NCBI GenBank assembly: GCA_029565685.1
Contig: JAKQNR010000024.1
Coordinates: 186,001-250,000 of the forward strand
DNA from: a bacterium
Lineage (GTDB): Bacteria; Zhuqueibacterota; Zhuqueibacteria; Residuimicrobiales; Residuimicrobiaceae
Direction: 5' to 3'
DNA length: 64,000 nt
In this document: piece by piece, positions 6,062 through 23,527 of the stretch
How the letters are laid out: each line of letters opens with the position of its first letter
Position numbering within the stretch: position 1 is the stretch's first letter
Program-made: the position numbers and the translations under genes
Notes under the pieces: model-generated
Database searches by the model: none
Told to the model about the DNA's origin: nothing
The model's input: only the letters and a program-made list of their open reading frames with translations

Positions 6062-6104
6062 ATAAAAAAAGGCCATGGCAACTTCTTGTGATCTACCATG
6101 GCCC
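6062..6104 (-). terminator. terminator of the STAS gene
   Basis: On the minus strand GGGCCATGG pairs with CCATGGCC around a loop of about 17 bases and is followed by TTTTTTT. It lies between the STAS gene stop (6126) and the obgE start (6042). Confidence 0.8.
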
Positions 6105-6125: not shown

Positions 6126-6791
6126 TTATCCTTTTGTCGAGAACCGCAGCCGTTTCCGTTTTGAATCCAGATCCAATTGCTTGAGCAGTTTTCGCAGGGC
6201 AAACCACCCCGGCTTTTCATAGCCATAGGCGGAAGAGTTTAAAGTTTTGAGTATCTGGATGGTGCCCGCCTCTGGATCTTCCCGGATGATCTTTTGCACC
6301 TTGTCCTGCAGGGTTTCGACTGTTTTATTCGCCGCTGCTTTTTTGCTGATCGGGTCAGACGTCGGCTGCGCCGGCAAGGATTTGTATTCGTTTTCAGAGA
6401 CCGGCGCGGCGATTTCATAGCCTTTAGCAGCCAGGGTTTTCTCAAAATCCTTGACCGCTTCGTCAATCGTTTCGAACGCTTTGAGAATGAAATGAAATTC
6501 CAAAAGCTCAAACACTTCGTACACTTCGGGTATCATGCGCACCAGCTTCAAGTCGCCGCCCTTTTCCCGAATGCCTTTGATCTCGCTGATAAAAATTCCC
6601 CAGCCGGCGGAACTGACATAATCCACATTTCCCAGATCGATGATGATGTTGTAGGAACCGGCCTTGAGCAACGTATTCAATGCATGCTCCAACTCGGACG
6701 ACGTGGTGGTGTCGATGTACCCGCCCACTTTGATAATCGAGATGCTGTTACGATACCCTGCCTTTTCAACAGAAAGTTGAATGCCTTCCAT
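6126..6791 (-). CDS. STAS-domain anti-sigma-factor antagonist with a C-terminal winged-helix-like module
   Basis: Likely partner-switching protein of the SpoIIAA/RsbV kind, which binds an RsbW-like kinase when unphosphorylated. The STAS fold covers residues 1-120. The segment VSSAGWG aligns with the phosphoserine loop of SpoIIAA, making Ser61 the probable phosphorylation site. After a Lys/Ala/Ser-rich linker, residues 167-217 form a second domain. This domain aligns without gaps to residues 744-794 of the neighbouring phosphatase fusion, with 14 identities by eye (II, PE, G, YG and spaced leucines). The ATG at 6791 has GGAG eight bases upstream. The open frame extends further upstream, but that part overlaps the promoter at 6832-6860. 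The gene has its own promoter and terminator, so it is expressed separately from the fusion gene. The role of the C-terminal module is inference. Confidence 0.85.
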   Translation of the reverse strand: MEGIQLSVEKAGYRNSISIIKVGGYIDTTTSSELEHALNTLLKAGSYNIIIDLGNVDYVSSAGWGIFISEIKGIREKGGDLKLVRMIPEVYEVFELLEFHFILKAFETIDEAVKDFEKTLAAKGYEIAAPVSENEYKSLPAQPTSDPISKKAAANKTVETLQDKVQKIIREDPEAGTIQILKTLNSSAYGYEKPGWFALRKLLKQLDLDSKRKRLRFSTKG

Positions 6792-6831
6792 GTCGGTCTC
6801 CAAATGGGAAATGGCCTGCACTACGAAATAA

Positions 6832-6860
6832 AATATAGCGGATAATCCCCTAAATGTCAA
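6832..6860 (-). promoter_or_regulatory. near-consensus sigma-70 promoter of the STAS gene
   Basis: TTGACA (6855-6860) and TATATT (6832-6837) on the minus strand are separated by exactly 17 bases. Transcription would start near 6825, about 34 bases before the ATG. It begins 27 bases after the stop of the phosphatase fusion gene and is among the best promoter matches in the window. Confidence 0.8.
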
Positions 6861-6887
6861 TAAAAAACATTGCCTCAGGACGCCGGT

Positions 6888-9800
6888 TTACAGGCTTTCG
6901 GTCAAAAAACGTTTCGCCCGTTCAATCCCCGTACGAATATCGACGCGGCCCGGCGCCATTTCCAGCAGTTTTTCCCACACTTCTATCGCATGGCGGAAAT
7001 TACCCTGGTTGGCGTGCACCACGCCCAGATTTTCATACGCATCTGGATTCTTTGGATCCTGGTTGATCACAGCCGTGTAAACCCGGGCGGCCTCGCGCAG
7101 CTTTCGACAGCGAAAATAGGCGTTTCCCAACAACATGCGCGCCTGATGATCGCCAGGGAAAAAACGCAAATACTCCTCAAACAAACGGATCGACTCTGAA
7201 TAGTTTTCCGCCTCATAGGCGCCCACTGCATGCTGCAGGCGAGGATCATTCGCCTCCATACGGGCCGATCCTTTGGATCTTGGCTTTTGCGGATCCATGG
7301 CCAACATTTCGGCCGTTGAATCCGCCTGGCGTTGTTTTTGCAGCAGTGCCAGCAAATCATCAAATTCGATGACCTCGGCGGCGGTCTCCATCTGGCCGTG
7401 GCTGTCGCCGTTCGAGTCTTCCGCGTCGCCGCCATGCCATTGGCTCACCGATTCTAGGAATTCAAAAAACTGATCGGCGTCCAACCTTTCCTTCAGCTCC
7501 TGTCGGACGATCTGTTCCGAAATGTCGTAATCCAACTCGCCATGAGGATTGATCAGGGGCTGCGTTTCTTCCATCTCCAGCAATTCATCGATAGGCTGCT
7601 CAAGACGAGGCTCGAGCGAGAGGACCGTCGGTTCAGAATCAGGGCTGATTTCATACAAAACCGTCGCATCGGTCACCTCCTGCCCGGGAGACAGCGCGTC
7701 GTCATCCTCCAGCGTCAGGCCTCCGCCGGATTGCAGCAGCTCGGCAAAATCCAATTCATCCCTGCCCGCTTTTTCATATAGACGATGATCCGGCGGAAGA
7801 TCCAGATCAGCAGCTTGGCTTCGCTCCTCAGCATCCGGCTCCAGCGCGGCAACAGCGGGCGATATCTCCTGCAACGCAGCAGGCTCTTCCCCTTTCAAGC
7901 CGGGTGAAAAAACCTCAGCCGCTTCCGCCTCGTCCTCTGACTGAGCATATTCGGGCAGTCCCAGGGTCAGTTCCTCGGCCTCTGCGGCAGCTTGGCTCTC
8001 CGGCGTACTGCCGGCGCGTTTGTCGAACAGATCCTCCAGCGCCTGATGAAACAGCTCCGCAGCTTGAATGCTCAGAATATCCCGTCCTTGGTAAACATAC
8101 TTTTCCTCACGCCGCGGTGGTATGGCCTGCGTCTTGCCGGAGGACTCGGAAACAGCAACCGTTTCGTCAGCAGGCTCGGCCACAGAAGCTTCAGCAATCG
8201 ATTTCACCGACCGCCGTTTGGATGCAGGCCTGGGCATGGACGAAACCGGTTCGTCGATCGCCGGCTCCTGGGCGTCGGACAGTCCGCCCCGCTGAATGAT
8301 CACGCGGCCGTCCAATGTCAGCAGCGGCGTGCCCGGCGGTTTGATCCGGCGCCGCCGGCCTCCGCGATTGATGAACGCCTCGCGCAATTCGCGCGTGTTC
8401 AGATGCGCGCGCACCAGCTCTTCATAGATTTTCGAACTGCTGATCTGAAGAAAACCGTAGCGTTCGCTGTACAGCTCTTCGCTAATCTTTTTTGCCCCGT
8501 ATTCGGGAAAGCGGCTGATAATGTCGTAAATTTTGGTTTTCTCTTCAATGCTGAGATGCTTGGCCTCCAGCGCATCCGATTCTCCGATCAGCTCATAGCT
8601 GTCGACGCCGGTCAATTCAAATTTGTCCCGGTATTTGTTATAATAGGCGTAGGTGGACAGCCCCACCAGATCGCACGCCTCTTTGATGGTTTTGCCTTGC
8701 TCGATCAGGCTGAACACTCTTTTCGCCCGCTCCAGCTCGATCTTTTCCGCAGTGGTCTTTTCTTTGATCGCCACCAAAGTGATGTCATCATTTTGCGCGC
8801 TGCCTTCGGTGAATGAAAGGATCTCCTCATGCAGCCGGTTGACAAACACGTTCGGCGGCAAAGTGCCGTGTTGGCGAATGACGTCGAGAAACCGTTCTTC
8901 GCCGAACAGAGCGCGTTTGCGGTTCATGGCCTCGGTGATGCCGTCGGTATAGATGAGCAGGATATCATCCTCAGCCAGCGAGATCGTGTCCGAAGTAATG
9001 GTGTTGCGGAAAAGATTTTTATCCGGCAGCGAGATACCGATGGGAAACCCGTGGGGATTCAGATAAAAAGTTTTATTCTTACTGGCCCGGTAGAGGATCA
9101 TGGGATTGTGGCCGGCGCTGGCATAGTTGAGTTTGCGCCGCTTGGAATCGATGATGACGTAAAACAGGGTGACGAACATGCCCTTCTTCATATCGTTGAC
9201 CACGAAATCATTGACGCGCGACAGCACTTCAGCGGCGTCTTTGACGCCGCGCGCTTCAGTGCGCAACGCGGTCCGGATCATGGTCATGACCAGGGAGCCG
9301 GGCACGCCTTTGCCGGACACGTCGGCCACCACGATTCCCAGCGTGTCCTTATCCACCTCGACAAAGTCATAATAGTCTCCGCCCACCTCCTTGGCCGCCG
9401 CATAGTAAGAGGAAATCTCGTATCCTTCGATCTCGGGGAAATCGGACGGCAACAGCGTTTGCTGGATCTCCTGCGCTACCTGCATCTCTTTCTGCAGGCG
9501 TTCCTGTTCAGCCAGGTTGACCTGAGACTCGCGCAGCTTCATGGTGATGTCGCTGAATGCCTGGGCAATTTCGCCGATCTCGGTCGAGGCGTCGATGTCC
9601 ATCTCCTGGGCCGCTCCCGGTTGGCCCAGAGCTTTGACCCATTCCGAAAGCCGGCGGAAGGGATTCATCACGATATAGATCAGCAGAAACAGACCCGCCG
9701 CGCCCAGCACCCAGACAAAGCCGAGCATGTTCAGGTCTTTCAGCCGCGCCTGTTGGATCTCCTCGCTGATCACCCGATAGTTCATCACGAAATGAACTTG

Positions 9801-10754
9801 ACACAGCCGCCGACCCTTGTCGTCCTGCACGATCTGATGGACATCAACCACGCGGTCCGCTGGAGGAACCGTGTAGCTGTAGATGTCCGAGGCCTCCTGC
9901 TTCGCATTTGCAGGCCGTTCATACAGTTGCAGCCGCTTGCTGGGATCGGTGGATGCGATGATGTTGTTGCTGCGGTCCACCACCAGGGCGTGGTGAAGAA
10001 AGCCGCGATATTCCGCCGGCAGCTTGTTGACCGTGCGGCCCAGACTCTCGACGATGTTGAACAGCTGCGAAGCGTCATCGCGGTTGAGCAACAGCTGCAG
10101 GTCCTCGCCCAGCTCGGGCTGCTGCAGGGTCAGGAGCACATCAGAAGCCAGGCCGGAACACGCGGCCTTGGCGCGGCCGAGGTAATCCTGCATCACCTGG
10201 TCATCCCGGCGGAAAAAATTGAGAAAATAGATAGTGGATAAAATCAGAGAGAACGCCAACATGGAAACCAGCCAGTAGCGCACCTTGAGGGTCATCGGGA
10301 TGGCCGGCACAGCGATCTTGGGATGCCGCGCCACATCGCGATGTTTGATCATCCAAAGCTCGTTGCCCTCCTCGGTCTTGCGATAATCGATCTGATCGAG
10401 CAGGCGCCGCATGATGAAAATGCCCAATCCGCCCTTTTTGCCGATCTCGACATAGCGCTTCAGATCCGGATCGTTGACCTGGCGCGGATCGAAATATTTC
10501 CCCTGGTCGATTAAAACGATGGTCAGGCTGTTGGCTTTGACAATGGCGCGAATGGTGATGTTGCCCGGCCAGTCTCGGTAGGCGTGTTTGATGATGTTGG
10601 TGGCGGCTTCGTCGATGGAAAGCTTGAAGGCATTGATCACCCGTTCGGAAAAACCATGGCGGCGGCCGACCTTGGTGACAAAATCCCGCAATTCCCCCAG
10701 ATACTCGATTTTAGCAGGAACCTTGAGTTGTTCTTTTTGTACGTTGCGAAACAA
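6888..10754 (-). CDS. membrane partner-switching fusion: RsbW-like ATPase, sensor, HAMP, PP2C phosphatase, HTH modules, TPRs
   Basis: A 1288-residue protein that puts opposed signalling activities in one chain. Residues 10-140 are a GHKL/RsbW-type ATPase with a DEAATNIIKHAY N-box (49-60) and GGLGIF (108-113). Transmembrane helices at about 158-180 and 343-363 enclose a sensor region (181-342), and a HAMP-like segment follows. Residues 445-666 form a SpoIIE/RsbU PP2C domain with all expected acidic metal-binding motifs: GGDYYDF (458-464), DVSGKG (478-483), TDG (603-605) and NDD (655-657). Then come a helix-turn-helix (about 673-711), a winged-helix-like module (744-794) similar to the one in the STAS protein, a long acidic linker (about 820-1160) and TPRs (about 1175-1288). 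The start is a TTG with a moderately placed GGGA. It follows the PorV-like gene by 21 bases. It probably sets the phosphorylation state of the STAS protein, but the sigma factor or other output is not in the window. Confidence 0.88.
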   Translation of the reverse strand: MFRNVQKEQLKVPAKIEYLGELRDFVTKVGRRHGFSERVINAFKLSIDEAATNIIKHAYRDWPGNITIRAIVKANSLTIVLIDQGKYFDPRQVNDPDLKRYVEIGKKGGLGIFIMRRLLDQIDYRKTEEGNELWMIKHRDVARHPKIAVPAIPMTLKVRYWLVSMLAFSLILSTIYFLNFFRRDDQVMQDYLGRAKAACSGLASDVLLTLQQPELGEDLQLLLNRDDASQLFNIVESLGRTVNKLPAEYRGFLHHALVVDRSNNIIASTDPSKRLQLYERPANAKQEASDIYSYTVPPADRVVDVHQIVQDDKGRRLCQVHFVMNYRVISEEIQQARLKDLNMLGFVWVLGAAGLFLLIYIVMNPFRRLSEWVKALGQPGAAQEMDIDASTEIGEIAQAFSDITMKLRESQVNLAEQERLQKEMQVAQEIQQTLLPSDFPEIEGYEISSYYAAAKEVGGDYYDFVEVDKDTLGIVVADVSGKGVPGSLVMTMIRTALRTEARGVKDAAEVLSRVNDFVVNDMKKGMFVTLFYVIIDSKRRKLNYASAGHNPMILYRASKNKTFYLNPHGFPIGISLPDKNLFRNTITSDTISLAEDDILLIYTDGITEAMNRKRALFGEERFLDVIRQHGTLPPNVFVNRLHEEILSFTEGSAQNDDITLVAIKEKTTAEKIELERAKRVFSLIEQGKTIKEACDLVGLSTYAYYNKYRDKFELTGVDSYELIGESDALEAKHLSIEEKTKIYDIISRFPEYGAKKISEELYSERYGFLQISSSKIYEELVRAHLNTRELREAFINRGGRRRRIKPPGTPLLTLDGRVIIQRGGLSDAQEPAIDEPVSSMPRPASKRRSVKSIAEASVAEPADETVAVSESSGKTQAIPPRREEKYVYQGRDILSIQAAELFHQALEDLFDKRAGSTPESQAAAEAEELTLGLPEYAQSEDEAEAAEVFSPGLKGEEPAALQEISPAVAALEPDAEERSQAADLDLPPDHRLYEKAGRDELDFAELLQSGGGLTLEDDDALSPGQEVTDATVLYEISPDSEPTVLSLEPRLEQPIDELLEMEETQPLINPHGELDYDISEQIVRQELKERLDADQFFEFLESVSQWHGGDAEDSNGDSHGQMETAAEVIEFDDLLALLQKQRQADSTAEMLAMDPQKPRSKGSARMEANDPRLQHAVGAYEAENYSESIRLFEEYLRFFPGDHQARMLLGNAYFRCRKLREAARVYTAVINQDPKNPDAYENLGVVHANQGNFRHAIEVWEKLLEMAPGRVDIRTGIERAKRFLTESL

Positions 10755-10775
10755 CGAAACAGTTTCCCTTTATAT

Positions 10776-12782
10776 CTATCTACCTGCAGTTCCGCTGATC
10801 TTTTTCAATTTGTCGTTCGCCGAATCAATCGCCCGCAGGATGTTGCGGTTTAACGGTTGCAGTTTTCTCGCCTCCTCCAGATGACGCAGCGCCTCCTGAT
10901 AGTTGCCGGCAATGGCCGCCTGGACGCCCCGGTTGTAGATGGCCTTGACGTTTTCCGGCATATCTAGATCTTTGGCGTTGGCGCGGGCAAAGGCGTCGTC
11001 GTATTTTTTGCGCAACGCCACGTTGCCCGGTTCGCTGTTGGACAGCTCGCGGTACAGTTCCGCCGCTTTGGCCCAGTTCTTGTCGTTCTCATATTCCATA
11101 GCCTGACGCAGCATGCTGTCGCGCGACAGCCCGGCGCTGATCTGGTCGATTTGCCCGATAATATACGACTTGTAACGTTCATTGTCACGCGATAATCGCC
11201 GGGCTTCATTGAGCATAGTGATGGCCTCGTTGGGCCGACCGGCCGACTGCAGCGTTTTAGCCCGCTCCAGCAGACTGGCGATTTTGGTCGCCAGCGCTTT
11301 CTCCGCATCGCTTTTCAATTTTTTGAACTGATCGCTGTTGGGCGCATACTCGAGCGCCTTGTCGATCTCTATCAGGGCATCATGATACTCTTCGGCGGTG
11401 AAATAGGCCAGATACCGCTTGTAATGATCGTCCGCCGCTATGGCGTTGCGCCGGATCTGCGCCTCTTCCTCCTGCAACCGGCGAAGCGCTTCCTCCTCTT
11501 TGGTGCGTTTTTCCTCCAGCGCCTTGCTGATGCGCGCGAACAGCTCGCGGGTGACCTCGAGATCCGGATCGCTGCCGGTGCGGTCGTATTTGATCAAAAT
11601 GCGGTAGATGGCCACATAGGCCTGTTCCAGATCGTTTTTGGCCAGCAGCTTTTCCCCTTCCGCCATGCCGGAGGAGATGGCGTTTCTGCGTTCGTTCTCC
11701 AGCCGTTGGGTCTCTATTTTTTCGAGCCGCTGCAACTCCTGCTGCTGATGCTCCTCCATCCGCTGTTGCCGGTTTTTACCGACGTTGAGAACCAAAGAGA
11801 GGCGATGGCTGGTGCCCAGCAACGCATCGTTGCCGTTCCAGTAGGAATAATCGAACTGCATGCCGGCCAGTTTGGCGCCGACGCCATAAGTGAGATGGTC
11901 GTTGTACAAACCCATGCGCAAGGAAACCGTCTCGTGATAACGATACTCCAGCCCCATATGCACGGTGGACGGAGTTTTTTCATTTTTGTCGATCTCAGCA
12001 GCCACCAACAAATGGTTCAGCGCGGAGATCTCGAACTTTTTGCTCATCCCTGCGCGCAAATTGCGCGGCGTCGATTCGCGCGCTTCAATCGCGCGGATGG
12101 TTCGCTGCAGTAGATTCTGCACAGTCACGCCCACGGTGAAATGGCTTAAATAGGGGCCGGGCAGCTGCGGCGTGAACACCAGTCCGCCGTCCGCGCCGTA
12201 GGAGGATTCGGCAAAATTCGGCGGCCCGGCAGTGGGGTCGACGTTATAGCCGATCAGGTTGGCACGCTCGACTTTAAAAGTGGCGCCGAGCGACAACCAG
12301 GGATGTGCGTTGAATCCATAGCCAAACAGAAACAAAGTCCGGCTGTAATTGGTGGTGCCCACCACCGCGGGATCAAAATCGCGCAGCTTGATGTCGCCGG
12401 TGGAGATGTTGAGAAGGCCGACGGAAAATGTGCCGGCGAAAAGCGTAGGGTGCACATAGGCGAGATAGTTGTACGAAGTGCCGGCCGCCAAATTGGTATA
12501 ATACACTCCCAGTCCCATATTGGGCACACTCTGTAAGGCGCCGGGATTCCAATACAGGGCAAAGGGATCGTCCGCCACGGAGACATAGGCGCCGCCTAGA
12601 GCCATGGCCCGCGCGCCCACCGGATAATCAAAAATATCCGTTGCGCCGCCCCAGGCGTCGGCTTGATACGAGTATTGCGCCATTGACGCCGGGATCAACG
12701 TCAGCCAGAACAGAAGCGCTGTTTTTACAATTCGACTCGCCACCCGATACTCTTGCCTTACTAGGGTTCCTAAAGGTCTCAT
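10776..12782 (-). CDS. PorV-like outer-membrane barrel fused to TPR repeats
   Basis: Predicted exported protein of 668 residues. A signal peptide (about residues 18-36, cleavage near ASMA/Q) leads into a PorV/PorQ (UPF0164)-type beta-barrel of about 310 residues with the family-like start DIFDYPVGARAMALGGAYVSV. A charged coiled coil rich in Glu/Arg/Gln (about 340-440) and several TPRs (about 440-668) follow. In type IX secretion PorV shuttles cargo across the outer membrane. The start ATG overlaps the stop of the giant gene as TGATG, indicating translational coupling. The barrel/coiled-coil/TPR fusion is longer than ordinary PorV, and the TPRs probably sit in the periplasm. Its pairing with the type IX-like giant protein supports a transport or anchoring role. 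Confidence 0.82.
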   Translation of the reverse strand: MRPLGTLVRQEYRVASRIVKTALLFWLTLIPASMAQYSYQADAWGGATDIFDYPVGARAMALGGAYVSVADDPFALYWNPGALQSVPNMGLGVYYTNLAAGTSYNYLAYVHPTLFAGTFSVGLLNISTGDIKLRDFDPAVVGTTNYSRTLFLFGYGFNAHPWLSLGATFKVERANLIGYNVDPTAGPPNFAESSYGADGGLVFTPQLPGPYLSHFTVGVTVQNLLQRTIRAIEARESTPRNLRAGMSKKFEISALNHLLVAAEIDKNEKTPSTVHMGLEYRYHETVSLRMGLYNDHLTYGVGAKLAGMQFDYSYWNGNDALLGTSHRLSLVLNVGKNRQQRMEEHQQQELQRLEKIETQRLENERRNAISSGMAEGEKLLAKNDLEQAYVAIYRILIKYDRTGSDPDLEVTRELFARISKALEEKRTKEEEALRRLQEEEAQIRRNAIAADDHYKRYLAYFTAEEYHDALIEIDKALEYAPNSDQFKKLKSDAEKALATKIASLLERAKTLQSAGRPNEAITMLNEARRLSRDNERYKSYIIGQIDQISAGLSRDSMLRQAMEYENDKNWAKAAELYRELSNSEPGNVALRKKYDDAFARANAKDLDMPENVKAIYNRGVQAAIAGNYQEALRHLEEARKLQPLNRNILRAIDSANDKLKKISGTAGR

Positions 12783-15700
12783 CAACGAATGACCGCTATC
12801 TTGCTGATAGCCACTTGGCCGCCTTCCACAGAAAGATAAGCGAGATATACGCCGCTCATCACACGCTGGCCGCGTCCATTGCGGCCGTCCCAATAAATAT
12901 CGCCGTCATGCAACCCGGCTGAGGTCTCCGCCGGGTGCTCCGCTTTTTTGAGATCCCAGCTGAAGACCAAGTCTCCCGTCAGGGTGAAAATTTTCAATTC
13001 GAGGTCGCTGGGCTGCTGCAGATAATAGACAAACCGCGTTTCCGGCCGGGCGGAGGTGCCGAACGGATTGGGATAATTGCAAAAAGAGGCCTCCAGCTTT
13101 TGATCGATCAAGACGACGGCGCCGGAGCTGTAAGCGAGCACGCTGACCCGCTTTTCCGTGGAATCGGCTAACAGCAAGCGGTATCGAGAAAGGGCGTCGC
13201 GGGCGATGACCGCGCTCGCCGAATCGATCGTCAACTGAAAATCCGCATTGATCGGTTCGTCGAGCACATCCACCAGCAGCGCGACGCGAAAGTCTTCGCT
13301 GTCGCGAATCGTGTCCGCGTGCAAGACGGTAAAATCCAGCAGCACTTTCGACGAGGCCGGCGGCGGCGACAGCTCGGCCAACACCTGGCGGTCCACCGCG
13401 TTCACCGCCGCAATGCGCGACACCACCTCACTGGCCTTGATCTCGTTGCCTTTTTTATCTCGGAACTCGAGGCGCAGCGTATCCAGCACCGATCGGCTGT
13501 TCAGCGAAATGTCCTTGTTGCGCAGAGAAAAACCCATCATCGCTAGATCACGGGCGCCTTTGACCGTGGTGGCCCCGGACTTGACCGTGTTCGGTTTAAT
13601 CACCAGCATGCCGGCCTCGCGCTTGATAATCACCCGTGCGCTGTCCTTTTTTACCAGCACGGTTTTTCGCGAATACTGATCGACCGGCAACGGCGCAAAT
13701 AATTTGACCGTAAAAGTATCCGGCACATCTGAAATGGTTTCCGGTGCACGCACCCGCCAAATCACCGTGTCGCCGCCGGTTTTGCTGAGAAGCGTGTAAC
13801 CGGACGGCAATTTAAAACTCAGGGCCGGCGCGCCGACAAACCCCGCTTCGCCGGAATTGCCCAGATAACCGTAAATGTTGAAAACACTGCCGATGCGCAC
13901 CGGCGCATAACTGACCATGGCGGTATCGCTCAGCGTGGCGGCCACGCTCACCTCTGCCCGTCGCACCACCTGGATGGAATAGGACTCTTCGATGTTTTCG
14001 ATCGCAGCGTACTGGTTCGAATTCAAATCCCGCGGCACCCGTTTCAACCGGAAACGGAAGATGGACAACCCCTCCGGCTTTTTGCTCGGCGCGCGCAAGC
14101 GCCAGTATGGATGCGCCCGGACTTTACTCTGCTCCAGCGAATCCGTGGTGGTAAATTCCACCGGCTTGGTCATCTGCACCACAAAGGGATCCGCGGTCTC
14201 ATGCGGCGCGCCCCTGGCGATCAGCCGAGAGGTCAAAATAAAATCCTCATCCGTGGAGACGACGTATTGATTGAGCGAATCCGGCTGCGTGATGGCCGGA
14301 CGCATGGAGAACACCGTCTTGTTCTGCAGCTGAACCGTCGTTTTGGACGAAGTCAAACTGCGCGTGGTCGACGGCGAGCGTTCATCATACCCTCTGACGA
14401 TGACATAAAACGAATCCGCCGTCGTTTTGCTCACCGTGGACGGTGCGGTCACCGTCCACTGCACCTTTTGATTCTCGCCGTAGGTGACGCTCTTGGTCTC
14501 CTGATCGATCTTGTATTCCGGGTTGGAGAACATGAGTTGGGCGGTGATTTTGTCCTGCACCACGCGGCGAGTGGTGACCGACAAAGTCACCTCAAAACTT
14601 TGATCCGTAGAAATCTGTTTGTCGATGGCGCCGGCCGGAGCGGTGATGCTGGGAACGCCGGAAGAGATGGCGCCCGCCTCGATGGTCAACACCGAAAGCG
14701 TACTGTTAGGAAAGCCGATGATATCCGCCTCCTGACCCGTGTGCTCATCCACCGGAATGGCGGTCATGCGGATCTCGATCTGCTTGGTCTCCACGCTCGG
14801 CTTTAAAGGAGCGATCACATTCCAAGTCACACTGGTGGAGATCGTAAAGATTTTTTCCGCTGTCTCTCCGGCTGCCAGGGTAAAGCCGCTCTCGAGAAAG
14901 TCGATCCTTATTTTGCCTTGGCTGACCCTGGCGGTGCCGCTGTTGGTTACCAGCGTGGATAACGTAGCCGACTGGCCGGCGGAAAAAACACCGCCCGGCG
15001 ATTGTATCGCTTCCAGCGGCGAGGACACCATCAAGGGCTGCATGGAAAGCTGTGCGCGGGTGACGACCCGGTTGATGCGGATAGAATCCAACGTGCTCTT
15101 GGTGCTCAGGTCGGTCCTGCCCTCGGCGCGGATATAAAAATGATGCGGGGCGGCCACTGCCTTGTCAGGCGCCCGCACAGTCCACTGGATCAGCGCAGGA
15201 AAAGAGCTGATCTCCCTCTGCAACGGTGTTTCCAGGTTAGGCGAATAGCCCATGCCGGAGGGCAGCTCCAGCGTCACCTTGACATTGCTGAGGTTGGGTG
15301 TGGCTTGGATTTCCGTCTGCAGTCCGATGTACTGCAGGGTGGATAATTCACCGGCCAATGCGCCGTTGGGGGAAAAAATCCTGCTGTTGGAGAGAAACAA
15401 TCCGGACCGCGAGGTGGAGACGCGAATCGAATCCCTGCCGTCGGCGAGGAGCGGCGCCGGCGCCCGGCTGTTCAAATCCTCAGGCGCGGCGATAATCTGA
15501 CACCGGATGATATCGTTCAACGATTCAAAGTTCGGCGCCGTCACATGAAAAGAATCCTCCACCGCCTGGGTGTCGTTGACGATATAGAAATCCCGCTCCG
15601 CGCCGGCTTCGTCGGTGAGAGTGAAATACTCGGGCAATTCGAGCCTGATCCGTCCGCTGTCCAGCGGCGCACTGCCCAGATTGGTCATGCGCGCGATCAC

Positions 15701-18700
15701 GGTAAAGGCCTGGCCTGCGGTCAAAATGGAATCCTTATCCGCTCTGAGCCGGAGGTCCAGCCGGATTTGCGCTGGATTCTGAATGCGCATGGCCACTTGG
15801 GCATCGATGTCTCTGCGCGGATTGCGAATCTGCGCGGGCAAAGGGGTGCCAAGCGTTTTCGCTGACAGAATCTTGGCGGTGAACAGCTCTTGCTTTTCGG
15901 ATAGCTTGGCGTTCCAGCTGTCATCGGCCGTGACCGTAAAGCGAACGGTGTCCTTGCTGGCACGGTTCAGCCGCGCAATGGTCATCAGCGAAGGCGTAAT
16001 GATAGAAAGCCCATTGCTCGTCAACTGCACCTGAACGGAATCCACGCCCCCCAGTTCGCCGGTCTCCACAGAGACATTGGTGTGAAAAACCTGTCCACGG
16101 TTGACCAGCCAGTTGCCGCGATCATCACTCACCCGTCCTCTGGGCTGCGCCAGATCGATGCGCACCCAGGACACGCTGCTTACCGAGACCGTATCTTTGC
16201 CCTGAGCCGTTTGAATGGTGGAAGGATTGGGTTGACCGAGGTTGACGTCATATCCCTGCAGCCGGACCGTGATCTCGGCGTTTCCAGCGATGTCGCCGTT
16301 TTTAGTGACCACATAGTATAAGGTGTCAGGAACGCCTCCGCCCGCCAGCTGAAAATTGCCGGAGCGGACCAGGCTCACCGGCGTAATAACGTAATCCGGA
16401 TCGATCTTGCCCTCGGTCTGGATGGTAATGTTGGAACGGTTGACGTCGGTCAGATGCAGCGCCGATTGACCGCTGTTGACCAGCTCTACGTTGATGCGCC
16501 AGTTGCTGTTGCTGTCGCCGGCGTTGATCTCTTCGGTGGAGGAAAACACGCGCAATATCTGCAGCTTTGCGCCGGGCTCTATGTTGGCAGAGGCCTGGTT
16601 GTCCTCTCCTTCGTGCTGCACAGCAGCGATCGCGTTGCTGTTCAAGCCCAGGGACTGAACGATCGAAGAGGTAAAGGCGACTGGACCGGGACGAGACAAC
16701 GCCGTTGCGGTAAATACCACCGTTCCGGTATCCTGACCGGTGATCGTGCCGGGAACGGCCAGCGTGGTTGGCGAGAAAGCAACTTTATCCAGGCTGTCTG
16801 CCTCCAGGTGAACCAGCACATTGCTCACCGGCTCTGATCCCCAGTTTTTGACCGTCACCTTGACGGGAAAACTCTGTCCCATACTGACGTTTTTAGTTGG
16901 ATTGGGCGCCTGATTGACCGTGGCTGTAATCTGCAGCAACGCGGGCGTATAGATCTGCGCGACAGCGATAGAATCATAAGCCGCGAGAATGCGCGCTTGA
17001 GATCCGTCGATGCCGACCGCCTGATTGATCACCGCTAAAAATGTCTCGCCGCTCAGATTTTCCATGCTGTCGGCGCGCACGTCGAAATAAACGACGCTCG
17101 GCTCGCCGATGCCCAAATTCTTGACCAGCCGCTCAGCGCCGTTGAACAGATGCGATTCGACTGCCTGCAGGCCGACGGCGATCTCTTTCAGATTCTGGCC
17201 GCCTTCGTTTTTAACCTCCACGCCGATGCGGAAATTCTGTCCGGTGTTGACATGGACGATGCCGGCTTCGTCGATTCGGTTGGCGTCAGCCACAATAAAG
17301 GTTTTCGTGATGCGCGCCCGCGAGGTGGAGGCGATTTGAACCGACTGCTGCGCCATGGTCTGCAACGGTTCCCGTGCGCTGTCGTTCACATCCCGGGCGG
17401 ACAGCACAGCGGTGATGGCGGCGGTGCCGCTGTTGGGCCCGGTGGTCAGCACCTGATACTCGAGCGTGTCCCGCTCGCCGCCGGCCAGGCGTTGTTTGGC
17501 CGGGGTCAACACCGGCGCCTGAACGGAGAAACCAGGCAGCGAGAACAAAATATCGCCGGCTGCCGGTGCAACCAAATCCAACGCCCCCTGGCCGGCATTA
17601 TACACCAGGACCTGAATGCCCCAGGGAATGCCGCTTCCCGCCGAAATGGTGTCCGCCGTTGTGATCACACGCTCGATAGTCAGAGTGCCGGGCTTTTGGA
17701 TGCGAATGGTCTTGCTGGTGTCAGCCGCCTGCAGCGCCGGAAGAACCGCCACCGGCTCTCCCGTGTTTTCGCTCACCGCTTGCACTACGCGACTGGTAAA
17801 ATGCTCAACCACTGAACCCAACTCAAGATTGGCCGCCTGCACCAGAATGCCGCGCGAGGTCCATTTGGACTGGCCCGCGGCCAACGTGTCGACAGTGGCC
17901 GTCGCTCCGGATGGATCCGGAAAAAGGGACAGATTTTCTCTGGACAACACCCGCACCTGCGCCGATCGAACCGTCTCGCCATTGCCGACGTTGGTCACCT
18001 TGGCGCGAAAATAAAAACGCTGTCCGGCATTGGCCGTCGAGTCGGCAGGAAGGGTCACCACCAGCGTGTCGATGCGCACTCGGGCTGAATCCTGAATGAC
18101 CACGGTCACCTGCGGCGAATTCAGACCATAGACGATGCGATCGCTGTTCAACTCGAGGGCCTCCAGAGCAGCGCTCAGCCGGCACTGGCCCAACACCGCT
18201 GAAGCGGCGCTCACTTCAGACACGGTGTAAACCAGGCTGTCCTCCGCGCCCGCCGCCAGCTGCAGGCCGGCGCCGGATAAAAACGATGTCGGCGGCTGCA
18301 CGGTGAAATAAACGTCGCCTTTGCTGAACATAATGCGCGAAGACCCGCTCGCGGGACGCACTTCCACCCGGCTGCCGCCGTTGTTCCTAACCCCTACGCC
18401 GATTTTCCAGGCGGACTTTTGGCCGCGAGTGACCGCGGGCTGGCTCACGCTCATCTTGGTGATCTCTAGTACCGCCTGGGTCTGCACTGTAACATAGGCC
18501 GAATTGCCCTGCTTGGTTTCATCGCTGTAGGTCTGGGTAATTCGGGCCGAGTCGGTGAGCGACACGGTGCCCGAGATCATCACCACGCCGGCGGCCGTGG
18601 TCGAGGCCACTTCGTTGATGGTGAACGAAAGGGTTTGAGAAGATTTGCCGCGTAGAAACAGACTGCCGTTGTTGAATAGCGCCGGCTTGGTCAGTGAAAA

Positions 18701-21700
18701 ATTGGTGGAAATATTCACATCGTTGCGGAAAAAAGAGAGCTGACTGTTGTTCAGCCGCAGCGTGTTGTCGCCGTTGTTGACCAGCACCATGGAGATCTTC
18801 CATGGTTTGGTCTGACCCGCGGTCACGGTCGGCACGCTGCTGCTCAGCGATTGAATGGTCAACGTCTTGGCGGTGCCGACGTTGGTGCTGTTGTTGCTGA
18901 GCAGGCCGACGCTGCTGAAGGGATTGCCGTTCTCCGTGCCCTTGAGGGTCACGGTCGGGAAATAAACCCCGGCGAGAAAACCGCCGGCGATGGGATTGAG
19001 ATTGAAATATAACACCGTGTTCGCTTGACCGCTGAGGGTGACGCCCAGGGCAGGATCCAAGCTGGCTGAATAATTATTCAATCCATCGCTGAACTCCAGC
19101 TTGGTGCCCGCCGGATCCAGCACCAGCGTGGAGCCGCCCGCGTTGGAGGCGGAGATCTGATAGCGCACCACGTCGCCGGGCGAGACGTAGGCCGGCTGCA
19201 GGCTCTTGGCCACAAAGAGAATTTGCGCCTTGCTCTGAATGGTCAGGTTGTCGCCGAGAACGCCGCTGGCCAGGGCGGTGATGCTTTTGTTGCGATTGGT
19301 TTCAACCGCGGTGACCTGCGCCGCCACGCTCATGGGGCCGATGCGGCTGCCCGAGGACTTGAGCTGAAAGATCAGACTGTCCCTTTTGCCGGCAGCCAAA
19401 ATTCTGCCGCCGCTGCCGGCCAGGCCGCCGGGCAAGCGGAAATAGTAATCCACCGGCTGCCCACCGGAGTCATAGAGCTTGACCCAGGTCTTGCTGCTGT
19501 CCGCCAGATTGAGCTGAACGTCCGAACCGCCTGCCTGATTGCTGACCTGCACCGTCACCCACCAATTGGTGCTTCCCTGCGTGACCGGCTTGCGCGATAC
19601 GCGGACACGGTCGATGACAAAATTGGATGGGGTCTGCAGCTGCACCGTGCCGCGCGCGTCGCTGCCTGAGGTGACCGACTTGATCTCATTGGTGTTGACC
19701 ACGCGATAACCGACCTTGGCGTCCAGCGTCAACACGCTCGCGGCCGCTGCGCCGGTTCTGCGCACAGTATAGATCAGCGTGTCGGATTGACCGGTTTTGA
19801 GATTGGCGCCGTAGCGGGCCAGGGCTGTGGGCCGCGTCAACGTCAGAATCGCCGGGGTTTGAATCAAATCGGTATAAGTCGAATCGAATTGAACCGCAAC
19901 CTCGCTGCCGCCACTGTTCTCCACCAGCACGAATATTTTCCACTCATAGCTGTTGTCGTTCACCGTCACCGCCGGCTGGGAAGGGACGATCCTGCTCACC
20001 CGCACCACTTCAGCCGGCTGCACCTCCACGCTGCCCGAGGCATCGCTGACATAAATGCCGGTGGTGGTCTCGGCGCGGGCGTAAAGGGACATCACGCCGG
20101 TTTCTGCACCGGTTTTCGTTATCGTGTAACGCAGGGTCTTGGTCTGCCCGGCGTTCAGAGTCGCCGTACCGTCGGTGAACGCACTGGGCTGCACGATCGT
20201 GTAGGTGTTGGATAAATCTGTCTGCGCTTTTCGAATGCGCAGAAAAGTTTTCAACCCGTCGAAGGAGAGGGTGACGGCCGAGCTGCCGCTGTTTTTCACG
20301 CTCGCCGAAACGGTCCACACAGCGGTCTGGCTTTGCGTCACAGTGGTCTGCGAAGGCGTTATGCCGGTTATCTGTAGAACCGATGCCTCGCGGTTGATAA
20401 ACGTATCCACCCCGCCGCGAACCGAATAGGTCTGGCTGGAATTCACATCGCTGTAGGATACATTCTGGTACACATAGATGCGGCCCAGCTGAGACTGGTT
20501 GCCGCTGGCAAGATAGTATCGCAGCGTGACGGTCCCTCCGCCGGCCACTGCGGTCGCGTTGTCGCTGTACGGGACCACGGAAAAAGAGGCGGAAACGTCG
20601 GTGATATCATCCTTAAGAAACTGCAGGGTGGAAGAAGTCAGGCCCGCACCGGCTGTGCCGTTGTTCCGGACGTCGCACTCCACCGTTACGCCCCCTTGTC
20701 CCTGATTGAGCGTATCAGCGGACACGCGCACGGCATTCACCTGCAGGGTCGCCTTGCTCTGCACCTGCCAGCTGTGGGTGGTGGCAGCGCCGTTGCTGTC
20801 GGTCATGGTCAGTGTGTCCAGTTTGCCGGAGACGAAACCGTTGATGGTTATGGTGGTCAACGCCGCGTCCTCTTCCACCCGAACCTGGAACTGAAGAGTC
20901 GCCTGTCCTGCGGCGGGAAGAGTGGTCAGTCCATCCACCCGCGTAACCTGATAATCATCGGTGTAAGCGGTGCCTCCGCTGTAAAATTGCAGAGTCGCCT
21001 GAACATTGGTCAATGCACGATCGCTGCTGTTGGCCACCTCCATCATCACCACGGCGTTGGTTTGACCGCGGCTTACCTTGAGATTGCTGCTGTAAATGCG
21101 ATTGATGGTCAGAGAACTGACCTCGATGGCCGTCTGGCCCAACAGCGTCGGCGTGCTGTTGTCGCGCACCAGCAGATTTTGCCTGCCCGCTGTCTGCAAT
21201 TTGAAATAGCTGCCGGAGAAGGTGTGCGAACCGGCATCGCTGGTTGTAAAGGTGTAGGGGTTGCTGCTGTTGTGATAGAGATAAGCGTTCACATCCGTGG
21301 AGGTGAAATAGACCTTGCCGGTGTAATTGGTCTTTAGGTTGGCGAACGCATCATAGGCTTTGACCGTCACCCCGCTGGGAAAATTGGCGCCCGCGGCAAT
21401 GGCCGACGGCGCGCCGCTGATGGTGAAATAGCTCAATGCGCCGGGATTCACCACGATATCGGTGGTACGAATGACGCCGGCGTTGCCTGAGACCACCCCG
21501 CGCAGGGTCACCGCCTCGGCGCACACCAGCACCTGCGGCGAACTGCCGCTGCCATTGACCACCGGAATGTTGGTCAAAGTGGCCGCGGCGTTTTTGTTGG
21601 GCGCTTCGCTGGCGCCTACGGTTGCGTTGATCAGAATCGTGCCGTTGGCGGCATTGCCAAACGCGTCCCTTGCATTGGTGACGTTGATGGGAAATTGCTG

Positions 21701-23527
21701 ACCTGCGATCTGAGGAGTGGCCACGCCGAAGGTAAAACCGGCAATAGCCGCAGGCTGCACCAGAACCGGCGCAGTGGTCTTACTCAAACTGGGACTGACC
21801 GTGCGCGCCGTAATGGTCTGCGAGCCGCTGGTTCGCAACTGAAAGTTGGTGCCAGGGACAAACACATCGCCTGAGGTGATGGCAAGCGGACTGGCATTCG
21901 TGAAGGTTAAAAGCGCCTGGCCGTCGCTGCTGGTAAAGTACAGGCTGCCGCTGTAATTGGTCTTGATGTTGCCGTAAGCATCGAGTACGCGGATGCGCAG
22001 ACCGTTGACGCCGAAGGTCTGTCCGGCGACAACCGACGTGGGCATAGCCGGTTCGCCGGTCACCTGCAGATCAGCGGCTGCGCCGGGCAAAACGCTTGCA
22101 GAGGCCGTTTGAACGACGCCGGCCGCCATGGTGGCTTTCAAGACCACCGCGGATTCACTGAGATAAAGTCTAGAGTTGGCGGCGCCGGAACCATTGATCA
22201 CTTGGACCGCGGTCAATTGGGGGGCCAAGCCGCTCAATGAGGTGTGCGGATTCGAATCGTCAAACGTGATCATCGCGGCGCCGTTTATGGGGTTGCCGGC
22301 GGCATCCTTAGCGTTGGAAATGGTGACGGGAAAATCAACGCCGGCGGTGATCGGGTTGCCGTTGTTTACAGACAAGGAAAAGCTGGCTATGCTGCCCGCT
22401 GTAACGGTGATGACATCCGTAGTGTCGCGCAACGGCGTGGGTTGATTGTCATAAACTATGATCCGCTGCTGGCCGGCTTTAGTCAGCTTAAATTCGCTGC
22501 CCGGGAAGGTGTGTTGGCCGTCGTCAGTAGGATTTGTCTCGAATTGATAGCTGGGTGGAAGCAATTTGTTGTCATCAGGAACAACAACATTAAAAGTGAC
22601 TGTTCTATTGTAGGTTTTAGCCAAATTCCCATAAGGATCATACGCAGTCACTTTGATGTCATTGCTAAAGCTGGCGCCGGATTGTACGGTGGTGGGTTCA
22701 CCGCTGATCACTAGGCGCGATGCATCCGTATGCCACACGGAAATATCAACATCTTTAACAACGCTGGATCTACTTGTGCCGCGCAATTTCACCGACTCTT
22801 GTTTGAATAAAATCTGCGGCGCTGACCCGGCGCCATTTCGAACAAGGATGGGATTCAGTTTCGCAGTGGTGCCATCCGGTGCTGGATTAGCGCCGACAAC
22901 AGCGGAAACGGAGACGGTATCGACAGCAGGATTTCCGTACTCGTCCAAAGCATTGGTGACAAACAGTTCAAAAGGGACGCCCGCGGTTTTTGTAGACGGA
23001 GTGCTTCCTATTCCAAAATTATAATTGTGGATCGGCCCATCAATATGAAACGGCAAAGAGGCGCCGGAATCAATAATGGTATAGGCGTTATCCAGCGTCT
23101 GCACTGTGATGATATTATCCAGCTTTCTGCCCGACGGATTGCCCACCAGGGCCAGCCAGATGGAGACCGTGCTGCCGGCGCCTACAGACGTTCCGCTTCC
23201 ATCCCGTGTGCACAGAACTGAATCGCCGCTCACCGCCGGCGCCAGAAATCCGCCGTCCAGATGCGAAGCGTCGGCGGACATGACCGCGATCACGGAGGAG
23301 AGATCAAAATCCGCGGCGTCGGGAAAAACCAGACGAATTTTTCCATCAGCAGGCAGTCCGGCGCCGGTGGTGGAGAGTGTAAAGGTGAATTTGTGCAAAG
23401 CGGGCGTATTGCTGGCATAGGAGGTCAGGCTGTCTTCGACTCCGCTCAGGATGCCGGGAGCAGCCGGCAAGGAAACCGCCAGAACAAAAATAAGGAATGC
23501 CGTTTTTATCTTGAAACGTGGTAGCAA
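12782..23527 (-). CDS. giant secreted repeat protein (3581 residues) with type IX-like C-terminal domain
   Basis: Predicted surface or extracellular protein. A hydrophobic signal peptide (residues 4-23) is followed by an N-terminal domain (about 25-150) also present in the small upstream gene. Next come immunoglobulin/filamin-like repeats of about 120-130 residues with the phrases AYDxYGN, YxGxVxFTS and GxHTFxGxxFKL. Then follows a very long array of CARDB-like repeats of about 120-140 residues marked by VxxGQxxxWxIxVxVxNxG. Near the end YPNPF opens a FlgD-like/Por-secretion C-terminal domain with the WDGRNGRGQRVMSGVYLAYL type of motif, ending in ISKIAVIR. The TTG start lies one base after the stop of the upstream gene, and its own stop overlaps the PorV-like start. 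No catalytic domain was recognised. Adhesion or a scaffold role is an inference. The frame is unbroken over 10.7 kb. Confidence 0.85.
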   Translation of the reverse strand: MLPRFKIKTAFLIFVLAVSLPAAPGILSGVEDSLTSYASNTPALHKFTFTLSTTGAGLPADGKIRLVFPDAADFDLSSVIAVMSADASHLDGGFLAPAVSGDSVLCTRDGSGTSVGAGSTVSIWLALVGNPSGRKLDNIITVQTLDNAYTIIDSGASLPFHIDGPIHNYNFGIGSTPSTKTAGVPFELFVTNALDEYGNPAVDTVSVSAVVGANPAPDGTTAKLNPILVRNGAGSAPQILFKQESVKLRGTSRSSVVKDVDISVWHTDASRLVISGEPTTVQSGASFSNDIKVTAYDPYGNLAKTYNRTVTFNVVVPDDNKLLPPSYQFETNPTDDGQHTFPGSEFKLTKAGQQRIIVYDNQPTPLRDTTDVITVTAGSIASFSLSVNNGNPITAGVDFPVTISNAKDAAGNPINGAAMITFDDSNPHTSLSGLAPQLTAVQVINGSGAANSRLYLSESAVVLKATMAAGVVQTASASVLPGAAADLQVTGEPAMPTSVVAGQTFGVNGLRIRVLDAYGNIKTNYSGSLYFTSSDGQALLTFTNASPLAITSGDVFVPGTNFQLRTSGSQTITARTVSPSLSKTTAPVLVQPAAIAGFTFGVATPQIAGQQFPINVTNARDAFGNAANGTILINATVGASEAPNKNAAATLTNIPVVNGSGSSPQVLVCAEAVTLRGVVSGNAGVIRTTDIVVNPGALSYFTISGAPSAIAAGANFPSGVTVKAYDAFANLKTNYTGKVYFTSTDVNAYLYHNSSNPYTFTTSDAGSHTFSGSYFKLQTAGRQNLLVRDNSTPTLLGQTAIEVSSLTINRIYSSNLKVSRGQTNAVVMMEVANSSDRALTNVQATLQFYSGGTAYTDDYQVTRVDGLTTLPAAGQATLQFQVRVEEDAALTTITINGFVSGKLDTLTMTDSNGAATTHSWQVQSKATLQVNAVRVSADTLNQGQGGVTVECDVRNNGTAGAGLTSSTLQFLKDDITDVSASFSVVPYSDNATAVAGGGTVTLRYYLASGNQSQLGRIYVYQNVSYSDVNSSQTYSVRGGVDTFINREASVLQITGITPSQTTVTQSQTAVWTVSASVKNSGSSAVTLSFDGLKTFLRIRKAQTDLSNTYTIVQPSAFTDGTATLNAGQTKTLRYTITKTGAETGVMSLYARAETTTGIYVSDASGSVEVQPAEVVRVSRIVPSQPAVTVNDNSYEWKIFVLVENSGGSEVAVQFDSTYTDLIQTPAILTLTRPTALARYGANLKTGQSDTLIYTVRRTGAAAASVLTLDAKVGYRVVNTNEIKSVTSGSDARGTVQLQTPSNFVIDRVRVSRKPVTQGSTNWWVTVQVSNQAGGSDVQLNLADSSKTWVKLYDSGGQPVDYYFRLPGGLAGSGGRILAAGKRDSLIFQLKSSGSRIGPMSVAAQVTAVETNRNKSITALASGVLGDNLTIQSKAQILFVAKSLQPAYVSPGDVVRYQISASNAGGSTLVLDPAGTKLEFSDGLNNYSASLDPALGVTLSGQANTVLYFNLNPIAGGFLAGVYFPTVTLKGTENGNPFSSVGLLSNNSTNVGTAKTLTIQSLSSSVPTVTAGQTKPWKISMVLVNNGDNTLRLNNSQLSFFRNDVNISTNFSLTKPALFNNGSLFLRGKSSQTLSFTINEVASTTAAGVVMISGTVSLTDSARITQTYSDETKQGNSAYVTVQTQAVLEITKMSVSQPAVTRGQKSAWKIGVGVRNNGGSRVEVRPASGSSRIMFSKGDVYFTVQPPTSFLSGAGLQLAAGAEDSLVYTVSEVSAASAVLGQCRLSAALEALELNSDRIVYGLNSPQVTVVIQDSARVRIDTLVVTLPADSTANAGQRFYFRAKVTNVGNGETVRSAQVRVLSRENLSLFPDPSGATATVDTLAAGQSKWTSRGILVQAANLELGSVVEHFTSRVVQAVSENTGEPVAVLPALQAADTSKTIRIQKPGTLTIERVITTADTISAGSGIPWGIQVLVYNAGQGALDLVAPAAGDILFSLPGFSVQAPVLTPAKQRLAGGERDTLEYQVLTTGPNSGTAAITAVLSARDVNDSAREPLQTMAQQSVQIASTSRARITKTFIVADANRIDEAGIVHVNTGQNFRIGVEVKNEGGQNLKEIAVGLQAVESHLFNGAERLVKNLGIGEPSVVYFDVRADSMENLSGETFLAVINQAVGIDGSQARILAAYDSIAVAQIYTPALLQITATVNQAPNPTKNVSMGQSFPVKVTVKNWGSEPVSNVLVHLEADSLDKVAFSPTTLAVPGTITGQDTGTVVFTATALSRPGPVAFTSSIVQSLGLNSNAIAAVQHEGEDNQASANIEPGAKLQILRVFSSTEEINAGDSNSNWRINVELVNSGQSALHLTDVNRSNITIQTEGKIDPDYVITPVSLVRSGNFQLAGGGVPDTLYYVVTKNGDIAGNAEITVRLQGYDVNLGQPNPSTIQTAQGKDTVSVSSVSWVRIDLAQPRGRVSDDRGNWLVNRGQVFHTNVSVETGELGGVDSVQVQLTSNGLSIITPSLMTIARLNRASKDTVRFTVTADDSWNAKLSEKQELFTAKILSAKTLGTPLPAQIRNPRRDIDAQVAMRIQNPAQIRLDLRLRADKDSILTAGQAFTVIARMTNLGSAPLDSGRIRLELPEYFTLTDEAGAERDFYIVNDTQAVEDSFHVTAPNFESLNDIIRCQIIAAPEDLNSRAPAPLLADGRDSIRVSTSRSGLFLSNSRIFSPNGALAGELSTLQYIGLQTEIQATPNLSNVKVTLELPSGMGYSPNLETPLQREISSFPALIQWTVRAPDKAVAAPHHFYIRAEGRTDLSTKSTLDSIRINRVVTRAQLSMQPLMVSSPLEAIQSPGGVFSAGQSATLSTLVTNSGTARVSQGKIRIDFLESGFTLAAGETAEKIFTISTSVTWNVIAPLKPSVETKQIEIRMTAIPVDEHTGQEADIIGFPNSTLSVLTIEAGAISSGVPSITAPAGAIDKQISTDQSFEVTLSVTTRRVVQDKITAQLMFSNPEYKIDQETKSVTYGENQKVQWTVTAPSTVSKTTADSFYVIVRGYDERSPSTTRSLTSSKTTVQLQNKTVFSMRPAITQPDSLNQYVVSTDEDFILTSRLIARGAPHETADPFVVQMTKPVEFTTTDSLEQSKVRAHPYWRLRAPSKKPEGLSIFRFRLKRVPRDLNSNQYAAIENIEESYSIQVVRRAEVSVAATLSDTAMVSYAPVRIGSVFNIYGYLGNSGEAGFVGAPALSFKLPSGYTLLSKTGGDTVIWRVRAPETISDVPDTFTVKLFAPLPVDQYSRKTVLVKKDSARVIIKREAGMLVIKPNTVKSGATTVKGARDLAMMGFSLRNKDISLNSRSVLDTLRLEFRDKKGNEIKASEVVSRIAAVNAVDRQVLAELSPPPASSKVLLDFTVLHADTIRDSEDFRVALLVDVLDEPINADFQLTIDSASAVIARDALSRYRLLLADSTEKRVSVLAYSSGAVVLIDQKLEASFCNYPNPFGTSARPETRFVYYLQQPSDLELKIFTLTGDLVFSWDLKKAEHPAETSAGLHDGDIYWDGRNGRGQRVMSGVYLAYLSVEGGQVAISKIAVIR

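Follow-up and report, generated by a model that had tools for sequence, protein, structure and literature searches.

Within a 64,000-nucleotide stretch of bacterial DNA (hereafter the window; contig JAKQNR010000024.1, positions 186,001 to 250,000, of a 5.3 Mb genome assembly), six genes on the minus strand join the parts of a partner switch to those of a PorV-type export branch. In the 5′ to 3′ direction the set consists of TPR378, g190, a giant secreted protein, PorV-TPR, KP and STAS, where KP is the name given here to a 1288-residue membrane kinase/phosphatase, TPR stands for tetratricopeptide repeat, and the STAS protein carries a C-terminal helix-turn-helix (HTH). The order of these genes is conserved through the phylum surveyed, KSB1/Calditrichota, and recurs in a second phylum, the Latescibacterota. 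We propose, as a reading that we consider evenly poised, that the module signals from the surface to the cytoplasm: KP would respond to the condition of the PorV/giant export branch by setting the phosphorylation of STAS-HTH, and the output would probably be transcriptional. The evidence is computational throughout and comes mostly from metagenome-assembled genomes.

Conservation of the gene order in KSB1/Calditrichota

With a profile built on the HTH region of KP, the protein was found in 76 of 82 genomes of the phylum and in 48 of the 49 of good quality, nearly always as a single copy. The neighbourhood was then counted at 40 loci spanning the phylum, each gene being scored only where the contig reaches it. 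PorV lies directly upstream of KP at 37 of 37 loci, a homologue of the giant protein lies upstream of PorV at 33 of 33, and STAS lies downstream of KP at 37 of 38; at the one exceptional locus (L088), KP is the second copy that its genome carries. Identical gene order is seen on 17 GenBank contigs, whose genomes partly overlap those of the 40 loci. Where KSB1 loci extend far enough upstream, TPR378 homologues precede the giant gene in all 17 cases, with the C-terminal signature KxxKNLKLxENDGxGFxxLLRAxLK in common, and g190 homologues precede it in 15 of the 17.

The initial annotation of this DNA had claimed a physical link between a partner-switching module and a PorV-type export module, with the fate of the neighbours in related genomes as a check. 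The neighbours are kept in KSB1 and recur in Latescibacterota, and the link is strongly supported by the conserved gene order. The STAS, KP and PorV-TPR genes were all found on the minus strand where that annotation had placed them, and its domain calls were upheld by family searches; it had also recognized the linkage of STAS, KP, PorV and the giant gene, while overlooking the membrane topology of KP, the HTHs of KP and STAS, TPR378, g190 and the promoter-like site of STAS. Its further suggestion, that export may be coupled to transcription or to some other output of STAS, is plausible.

Several other candidates were set aside. Two other large PorV_fam proteins of the genome (C38:484053 and C1:12946) have unrelated neighbours and score poorly against the PorV-TPR model, and they were rejected as copies of the module. 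Matches to the KP HTH of 1638–1993 residues, all in one family, are orphan KP paralogues with no adjoining PorV or STAS; these longer paralogues (G046:C23:49193-55171, G042:C169:2304-7217 and G044:C32:18932-24514) have a very long acidic linker. The KP-STAS match in CSSED10-310 (L018/G083:C447) is present in one of eight genomes of that phylum, on a 3.6 kb contig with KSB1-like identity, and is probably binning contamination. A further cluster of the same genome as the window (G000:C51:208000-224000, L133) contains PP2C genes, an RsbW-type ATPase and a STAS open reading frame (ORF), without a PorV or giant gene, and is apparently an ordinary partner-switching set.

Recurrence in Latescibacterota

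KP occurs in 30 of 80 Latescibacterota genomes, and the order giant-PorV-KP is found at 14 of 16 loci of that phylum. At most such loci three STAS domains are fused to the C-terminal side of the KP HTH, placing sensor, kinase, phosphatase and STAS in one chain and thereby tying KP directly to STAS; one locus (L126) has a separate STAS gene and resembles those of KSB1. Downstream lie a ParA-like ATPase, a TPR378 homologue, two STAS proteins and a membrane protein with a VWA domain (named by inspection), a set which is apparently a constant extension of the module in this phylum. It is seen at L114:14393-19565 and at the other loci from L112 to L127, with both additional STAS proteins carrying SSAG motifs. 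The TPR378 homologues, which here adjoin STAS genes, bear the C-terminal signature found in KSB1. Among the 80 genomes, 24 have both TPR378 and KP, 6 have KP only, 2 have TPR378 only and 48 have neither (Fisher p 1e-12, a value to be read with the caution that related genomes are not independent and that some of the single cases are possibly due to contig ends).

Domain structure of KP and STAS

The KP gene occupies 6888..10754 (coordinates here and below are on the minus strand), and its domains were assigned from Pfam and NCBIfam matches. Residues 12–137 (10344..10721) form an RsbW-type kinase domain (HATPase_c_2 4e-28; RsbW models 5e-22) and residues 469–664 (8763..9350) a PP2C/SpoIIE phosphatase domain (PF07228 2e-51). 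Hydropathy places transmembrane helices at residues 160–181 and 340–367. From these two helices, the N-terminal kinase and the C-terminal PP2C phosphatase are predicted to be cytoplasmic, with a periplasmic sensor of about 160 residues between them (residues 182–339, 9738..10211, from hydropathy and the AlphaFold2 (AF2) model). In the AF2 model the sensor consists of long helices and a β-sheet domain, with a predicted local distance difference test (pLDDT) score of mostly 75–90. The phosphatase is followed by a tandem HTH region (residues 670–797, 8364..8747) and by C-terminal TPRs (6930..7247; TPR_2 2.8e-12). No match to a REC domain was found in KP, which has an arrangement of transmembrane helix, sensor, transmembrane helix and HAMP instead.

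Both catalytic domains of KP retain the residues expected of them. The N-box Glu/Asn and the G boxes of a GHKL Ser kinase are present, and across 15 aligned KP orthologues the kinase residues E49, N53, D83, G109 and G111 and the phosphatase aspartates D460, D478, D604 and D656/D657 are invariant. The top Foldseek match of the kinase domain is RsbW (6m37), with a TM-score of 0.87 on the target.

The STAS gene (6126..6791, with an ATG start) encodes a STAS domain (PF01740 2e-18; TIGR00377 above its cut-off) followed by a winged HTH. Its motif DYxSSAGWG, including both serines, is invariant across the aligned orthologues, and the second serine, the putative phosphate acceptor (codon 6609-6611), stands at what we take, by counting residues, to be the position of Ser58 of SpoIIAA. 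The AF2 fold of the STAS domain matches SpoIIAA/RsbV structures, and the C-terminal winged HTH is modelled with a pLDDT of about 87–92.

The tandem HTH of KP, helical in the AF2 model, resembles the DNA-binding part of transposases, with matches to the N-terminal region of IS481 (7.5e-7) and to IS3 (2e-5). In a profile–profile comparison with hhalign, the STAS HTH is homologous to the second HTH of KP (probability 93.8%, E 1.8e-7); therefore, the predicted enzyme and its predicted substrate have a domain in common. The KP HTH profile also picks up the STAS ORFs beside KP in two genomes, and the HTH domains are kept on both proteins throughout the phylum. That KP would act on STAS as both kinase and phosphatase follows from the fusion, the linkage and the catalytic residues.

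The export branch

PorV-TPR (10776..12782) is an outer-membrane barrel of the PorV/PorQ family with a C-terminal TPR region (TPR_2 5e-11; alignment of 15 orthologues), and this region is inferred to face the periplasm. The barrel scores 126.8 bits against NF033709 (PorV_fam), for which the cut-off is 90. Against the equivalog model for PorV of the type IX secretion system (T9SS), NF033710, it reaches 53.7 bits, below the cut-off of 250. The PorV label given to it earlier thus holds at the level of the subfamily and fails at that of the T9SS equivalog. The genome has 25 PorV_fam matches above the cut-off, the one in the window included, so the family name alone is no proof of a T9SS shuttle function.

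The giant protein (12782..23527) has 3581 residues, with an N-terminal signal segment and Ig/NEW3-like repeats, and its stop codon shares one base with the ATG of PorV-TPR. A C-terminal domain of the sorting type (NYPNPFG...GVYLAxL...KIAVxR; 12785..13114) was recognized by alignment and by TIGR04183 matches in orthologues: 19 giant proteins were aligned at their C-termini, which have the invariant pattern PNPF...G...G.Y in common, and 18 of the 19 match the TIGR04183 T9SS sorting domain at an E-value of 0.01 or less (best 2.6e-8).

Among the relatives, 20 of 20 encode SprA/Sov, 19 of them above the cut-off, with 926.8 bits in the genome of the window; PorU is above its cut-off of 420 bits in 20 of 20 and scores 883 bits here. 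A T9SS-like translocon and sortase are therefore present in these bacteria, outside Bacteroidota, the phylum with which publications on the T9SS mostly associate it. The model for the motor protein GldM/PorM (TIGR03517) gave no match in the 20 genomes, but none in any control genome either, which makes the search uninformative; conceivably, the motor of this T9SS-like system is divergent or missing. The co-distribution of SprA was considered as a gauge of T9SS dependence and found uninformative, SprA being present in all genomes searched. Many Latescibacterota have SprA without KP, which means that the module is not required for the T9SS-like system.

Upstream of the giant gene lie the two smaller members of the set. 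The product of g190 (23529..23993, with a likely ATG at 23993) is a small protein with a hydrophobic signal-like segment, presumably secreted, and is a paralogue of the N-terminal domain of the giant protein (34% identity, E 9e-9). TPR378 (24499..25635) is a TPR protein of cytoplasmic type, in which neither a signal peptide nor a transmembrane segment was found.

Transcription signals

The gap between PorV and KP is 2–33 bp at most loci, consistent with transcription of giant, PorV and KP on a single transcript. STAS is preceded by a promoter-like site of its own, TTGACA-17-TATATT (6832..6860; 11 of 12 consensus matches). A site of the form TTGAC[A/T]-17-TA[T/A]ATT stands before the STAS ATG nearly throughout the phylum: a score of at least 10 of 12 is reached in 24 of 36 STAS upstream regions, whereas the counts are 0 of 20 upstream of obg, 1 of 38 upstream of KP and 2 of 33 upstream of PorV, and 5% of shuffled sequences score as high. 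This retention of a sigma-70-type site over most families is unusually deep for a bacterial promoter. A promoter serving the whole module was not found, the site being conserved before STAS only (TPR378, 0 of 17; g190, weak in 3 of 16). STAS is thus probably expressed from its own start, perhaps in excess of KP. Given this separate site, expression is probably only partly common to the module, with STAS being more than a final gene on a joint transcript.

An intrinsic terminator follows STAS at 6063..6104, with the stem GGCCATGG...CCATGGCC followed by T7 (minimum free energy −22.9 kcal/mol, z −3.0). Beyond it lie obg (5065-6042, minus strand), dprA, tRNA-like genes (recognized by eye), gltX and glnS. 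In this genome's order obg adjoins STAS with the terminator between them, an adjacency lost in other families. In B. subtilis, the Rsb network needs Obg in order to activate SigB. As members of the module, obg and dprA were rejected: they come after STAS over much of the class and are displaced in many families, and here the terminator separates them from it.

Proposed mechanism

How might the two halves of the module work together? In the mechanism that we propose, the giant protein, with its type IX-like sorting domain, would be secreted, and the neighbouring PorV-TPR would be its dedicated outer-membrane partner, with the TPRs in the periplasm. KP would span the inner membrane, and its periplasmic domain may read the state of the export or surface branch as its signal, as suggested by the arrangement of the genes and by the parallel with PorA of P. 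gingivalis, a T9SS C-terminal domain (CTD) protein which binds PorV and feeds the PorXY-SigP pathway (PMC7712824). The HAMP domain and a coiled coil would relay the message and shift the balance between the RsbW-type kinase and the PP2C phosphatase, both acting on the conserved serine of STAS. Coiled-coil linkers convey signals to the PP2C dimers of RsbU-type enzymes (PMC12143880), and a transmission of this kind to the KP phosphatase would fit that mechanism. Depending on the phosphorylation state, STAS-HTH, made from its own housekeeping-type promoter, would be either docked on KP or acting on DNA; which form corresponds to which state we can only infer. The output is most likely transcriptional, as STAS and KP have homologous winged HTHs.

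In favour of this signalling role are the linkage across families and in a second phylum, the fusion of KP with STAS, the invariant residues, the common HTH, the sorting domains, the presence of SprA and PorU, the short gaps between PorV and KP and the co-occurrence of TPR378. A number of points weigh against it. All of the support is computational. SprA is present in all 78 Latescibacterota scanned, KP in only 30 of 80. PorV_fam proteins are abundant in the genome (31 matches), and the giant protein is paired with its PorV by position only. The sorting domain of the window's own giant protein scores 19.3 bits, under the TIGR04183 cut-off of 23, and the model of the whole KP is weak, with a mean pLDDT of 66.8. 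The HTHs of KP and STAS may mediate protein contacts and not DNA binding. Finally, the predicted promoter of STAS means that control is not purely operonic.

A more specific version, which we advance only tentatively, is a relay from the surface to DNA: how far the type IX-like giant protein has been secreted or assembled, as read through its dedicated PorV-TPR, would switch the HTH-bearing KP, and STAS would itself be the transcription factor. If true, the antagonist of this partner switch would itself be the output that binds DNA, and no other partner switch before it would have been joined to type IX-like export.

One alternative, which we find doubtful, is that the output is not transcriptional and that phospho-STAS, in the manner of SypA or BtrV, acts on envelope or positioning machinery to control where and when the giant protein is displayed; its target might, with the same doubt, be TPR378 or the ParA-like ATPase of Latescibacterota. 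TPR378 is a constant member of the module in both phyla and the ParA-like gene adjoins it in Latescibacterota, but the KSB1 loci showed no ParA-like gene. There are precedents for such an output: SypA is an effector downstream of SypE without a known sigma factor (PMC10120452), and BtrU and BtrW of Bordetella affect the process of type III secretion (PMC8256260). Against it counts the retention of the HTH domains on KP and STAS throughout the phylum.

Canonical partner switching, in which the RsbW-type domain of KP would be an anti-sigma factor, dephosphorylated STAS would displace the sigma factor and the HTHs would be accessory, is in our view unlikely. By profile and by fold the KP kinase domain is nearest to RsbW/SpoIIAB, and several proteins of the sigma-70 family are encoded in every genome; moreover, the Rsb network of Chlamydia is reported to act on the primary sigma factor (PMC4552016), so a sigma factor of the SigB type is not strictly needed. 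However, a search of 81 genomes gave no sigma factor that passes the SigB/F/G cut-off (TIGR02980), a threshold which one of the control genomes does pass, and this makes a sigma output less likely; weaker sigma-70 relatives appear everywhere. The conserved module loci showed no sigma gene, STAS has an HTH of its own whereas canonical antagonists lack one, and a membrane-tethered anti-sigma factor doubling as the phosphatase of its antagonist would be unusual. As a cognate sigma factor of the SigB/F/G type was not encountered in these genomes, we claim membership of the partner-switching class for the kinase/phosphatase/STAS core only.

That the genes merely keep an ancestral order without a common function is very improbable and largely refuted: synteny is generally strong in this genome's order, where obg, dprA, gltX and glnS are also syntenic, but giant-PorV-KP-STAS hold together in many families where obg and dprA no longer adjoin STAS, Latescibacterota show the order again along with the fusion of STAS and KP, and TPR378 co-occurs with KP.

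Comparison with known systems

The fused KP of Latescibacterota can be compared with Rv1364c of Mycobacterium tuberculosis, an RsbU-RsbW-RsbV fusion in which kinase, phosphatase and STAS likewise lie in one chain, and KP has a Foldseek match to 3ke6, the RsbU-RsbW domains of that protein. Rv1364c differs in its cytoplasmic PAS input and in its domain order, and to our knowledge it has neither HTH nor TPRs and is not associated with any protein of the outer membrane.

SypE of Vibrio fischeri likewise has, in one polypeptide, an RsbW-like Ser kinase at its N-terminus and a PP2C phosphatase at its C-terminus, and it sets the phosphorylation of the STAS protein SypA, its downstream effector (PMC10120452). 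However, SypE belongs to the response regulators and has a REC domain at its centre, whereas KP has two transmembrane helices, a periplasmic sensor, HAMP, a tandem HTH and TPRs; SypA has 105 residues and lacks an HTH, and the syp locus makes polysaccharide and has no PorV/giant branch. KP is predicted to work like SypE and is not classed as SypE, the REC domain being missing.

On the side of secretion, BtrU/BtrV/BtrW of Bordetella tie partner switching to a secretion system, with effects on secretion itself (PMC8256260), but the system is type III, the proteins are separate and have no HTH, and no PorV or giant cargo gene is linked. In PorA-PorXY-SigP, a PorV-bound surface protein with a T9SS CTD reports to a sensor kinase pathway and thus to transcription (PMC7712824); that pathway uses a His-kinase two-component system and an extracytoplasmic-function sigma factor, not Ser kinase, PP2C and STAS, and controls the T9SS core. 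PorV itself shuttles CTD proteins (PMC5562754), and PorV-TPR, a member of the PorV/PorQ subfamily which adjoins a sorting-type C-terminus, differs from it in the added C-terminal TPR region and in falling below the equivalog cut-off.

Of the known designs, SypE/SypA, Rv1364c, BtrUVW and PorA-PorXY-SigP come closest, and none has the composition of the module. In the open-access literature no report was found of partner switching combined with a PorV-type or type IX branch, and these empty or irrelevant results agree with the earlier remark that no described system matches the locus. The module appears to be undescribed.

Being near-universal and nearly always single-copy in one phylum and recurring in another, the module probably belongs to the core physiology of these poorly cultured bacteria. 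It widens the range of partner switching by a transmembrane sensor which joins kinase and phosphatase, and by a fusion of STAS with an HTH, and it ties partner switching to a type IX-like branch outside Bacteroidota, in which the described T9SS signalling is that of PorXY-SigP. It offers a concrete and testable set of genes, and it suggests an undescribed route by which events at the surface may be conveyed to the cell interior.

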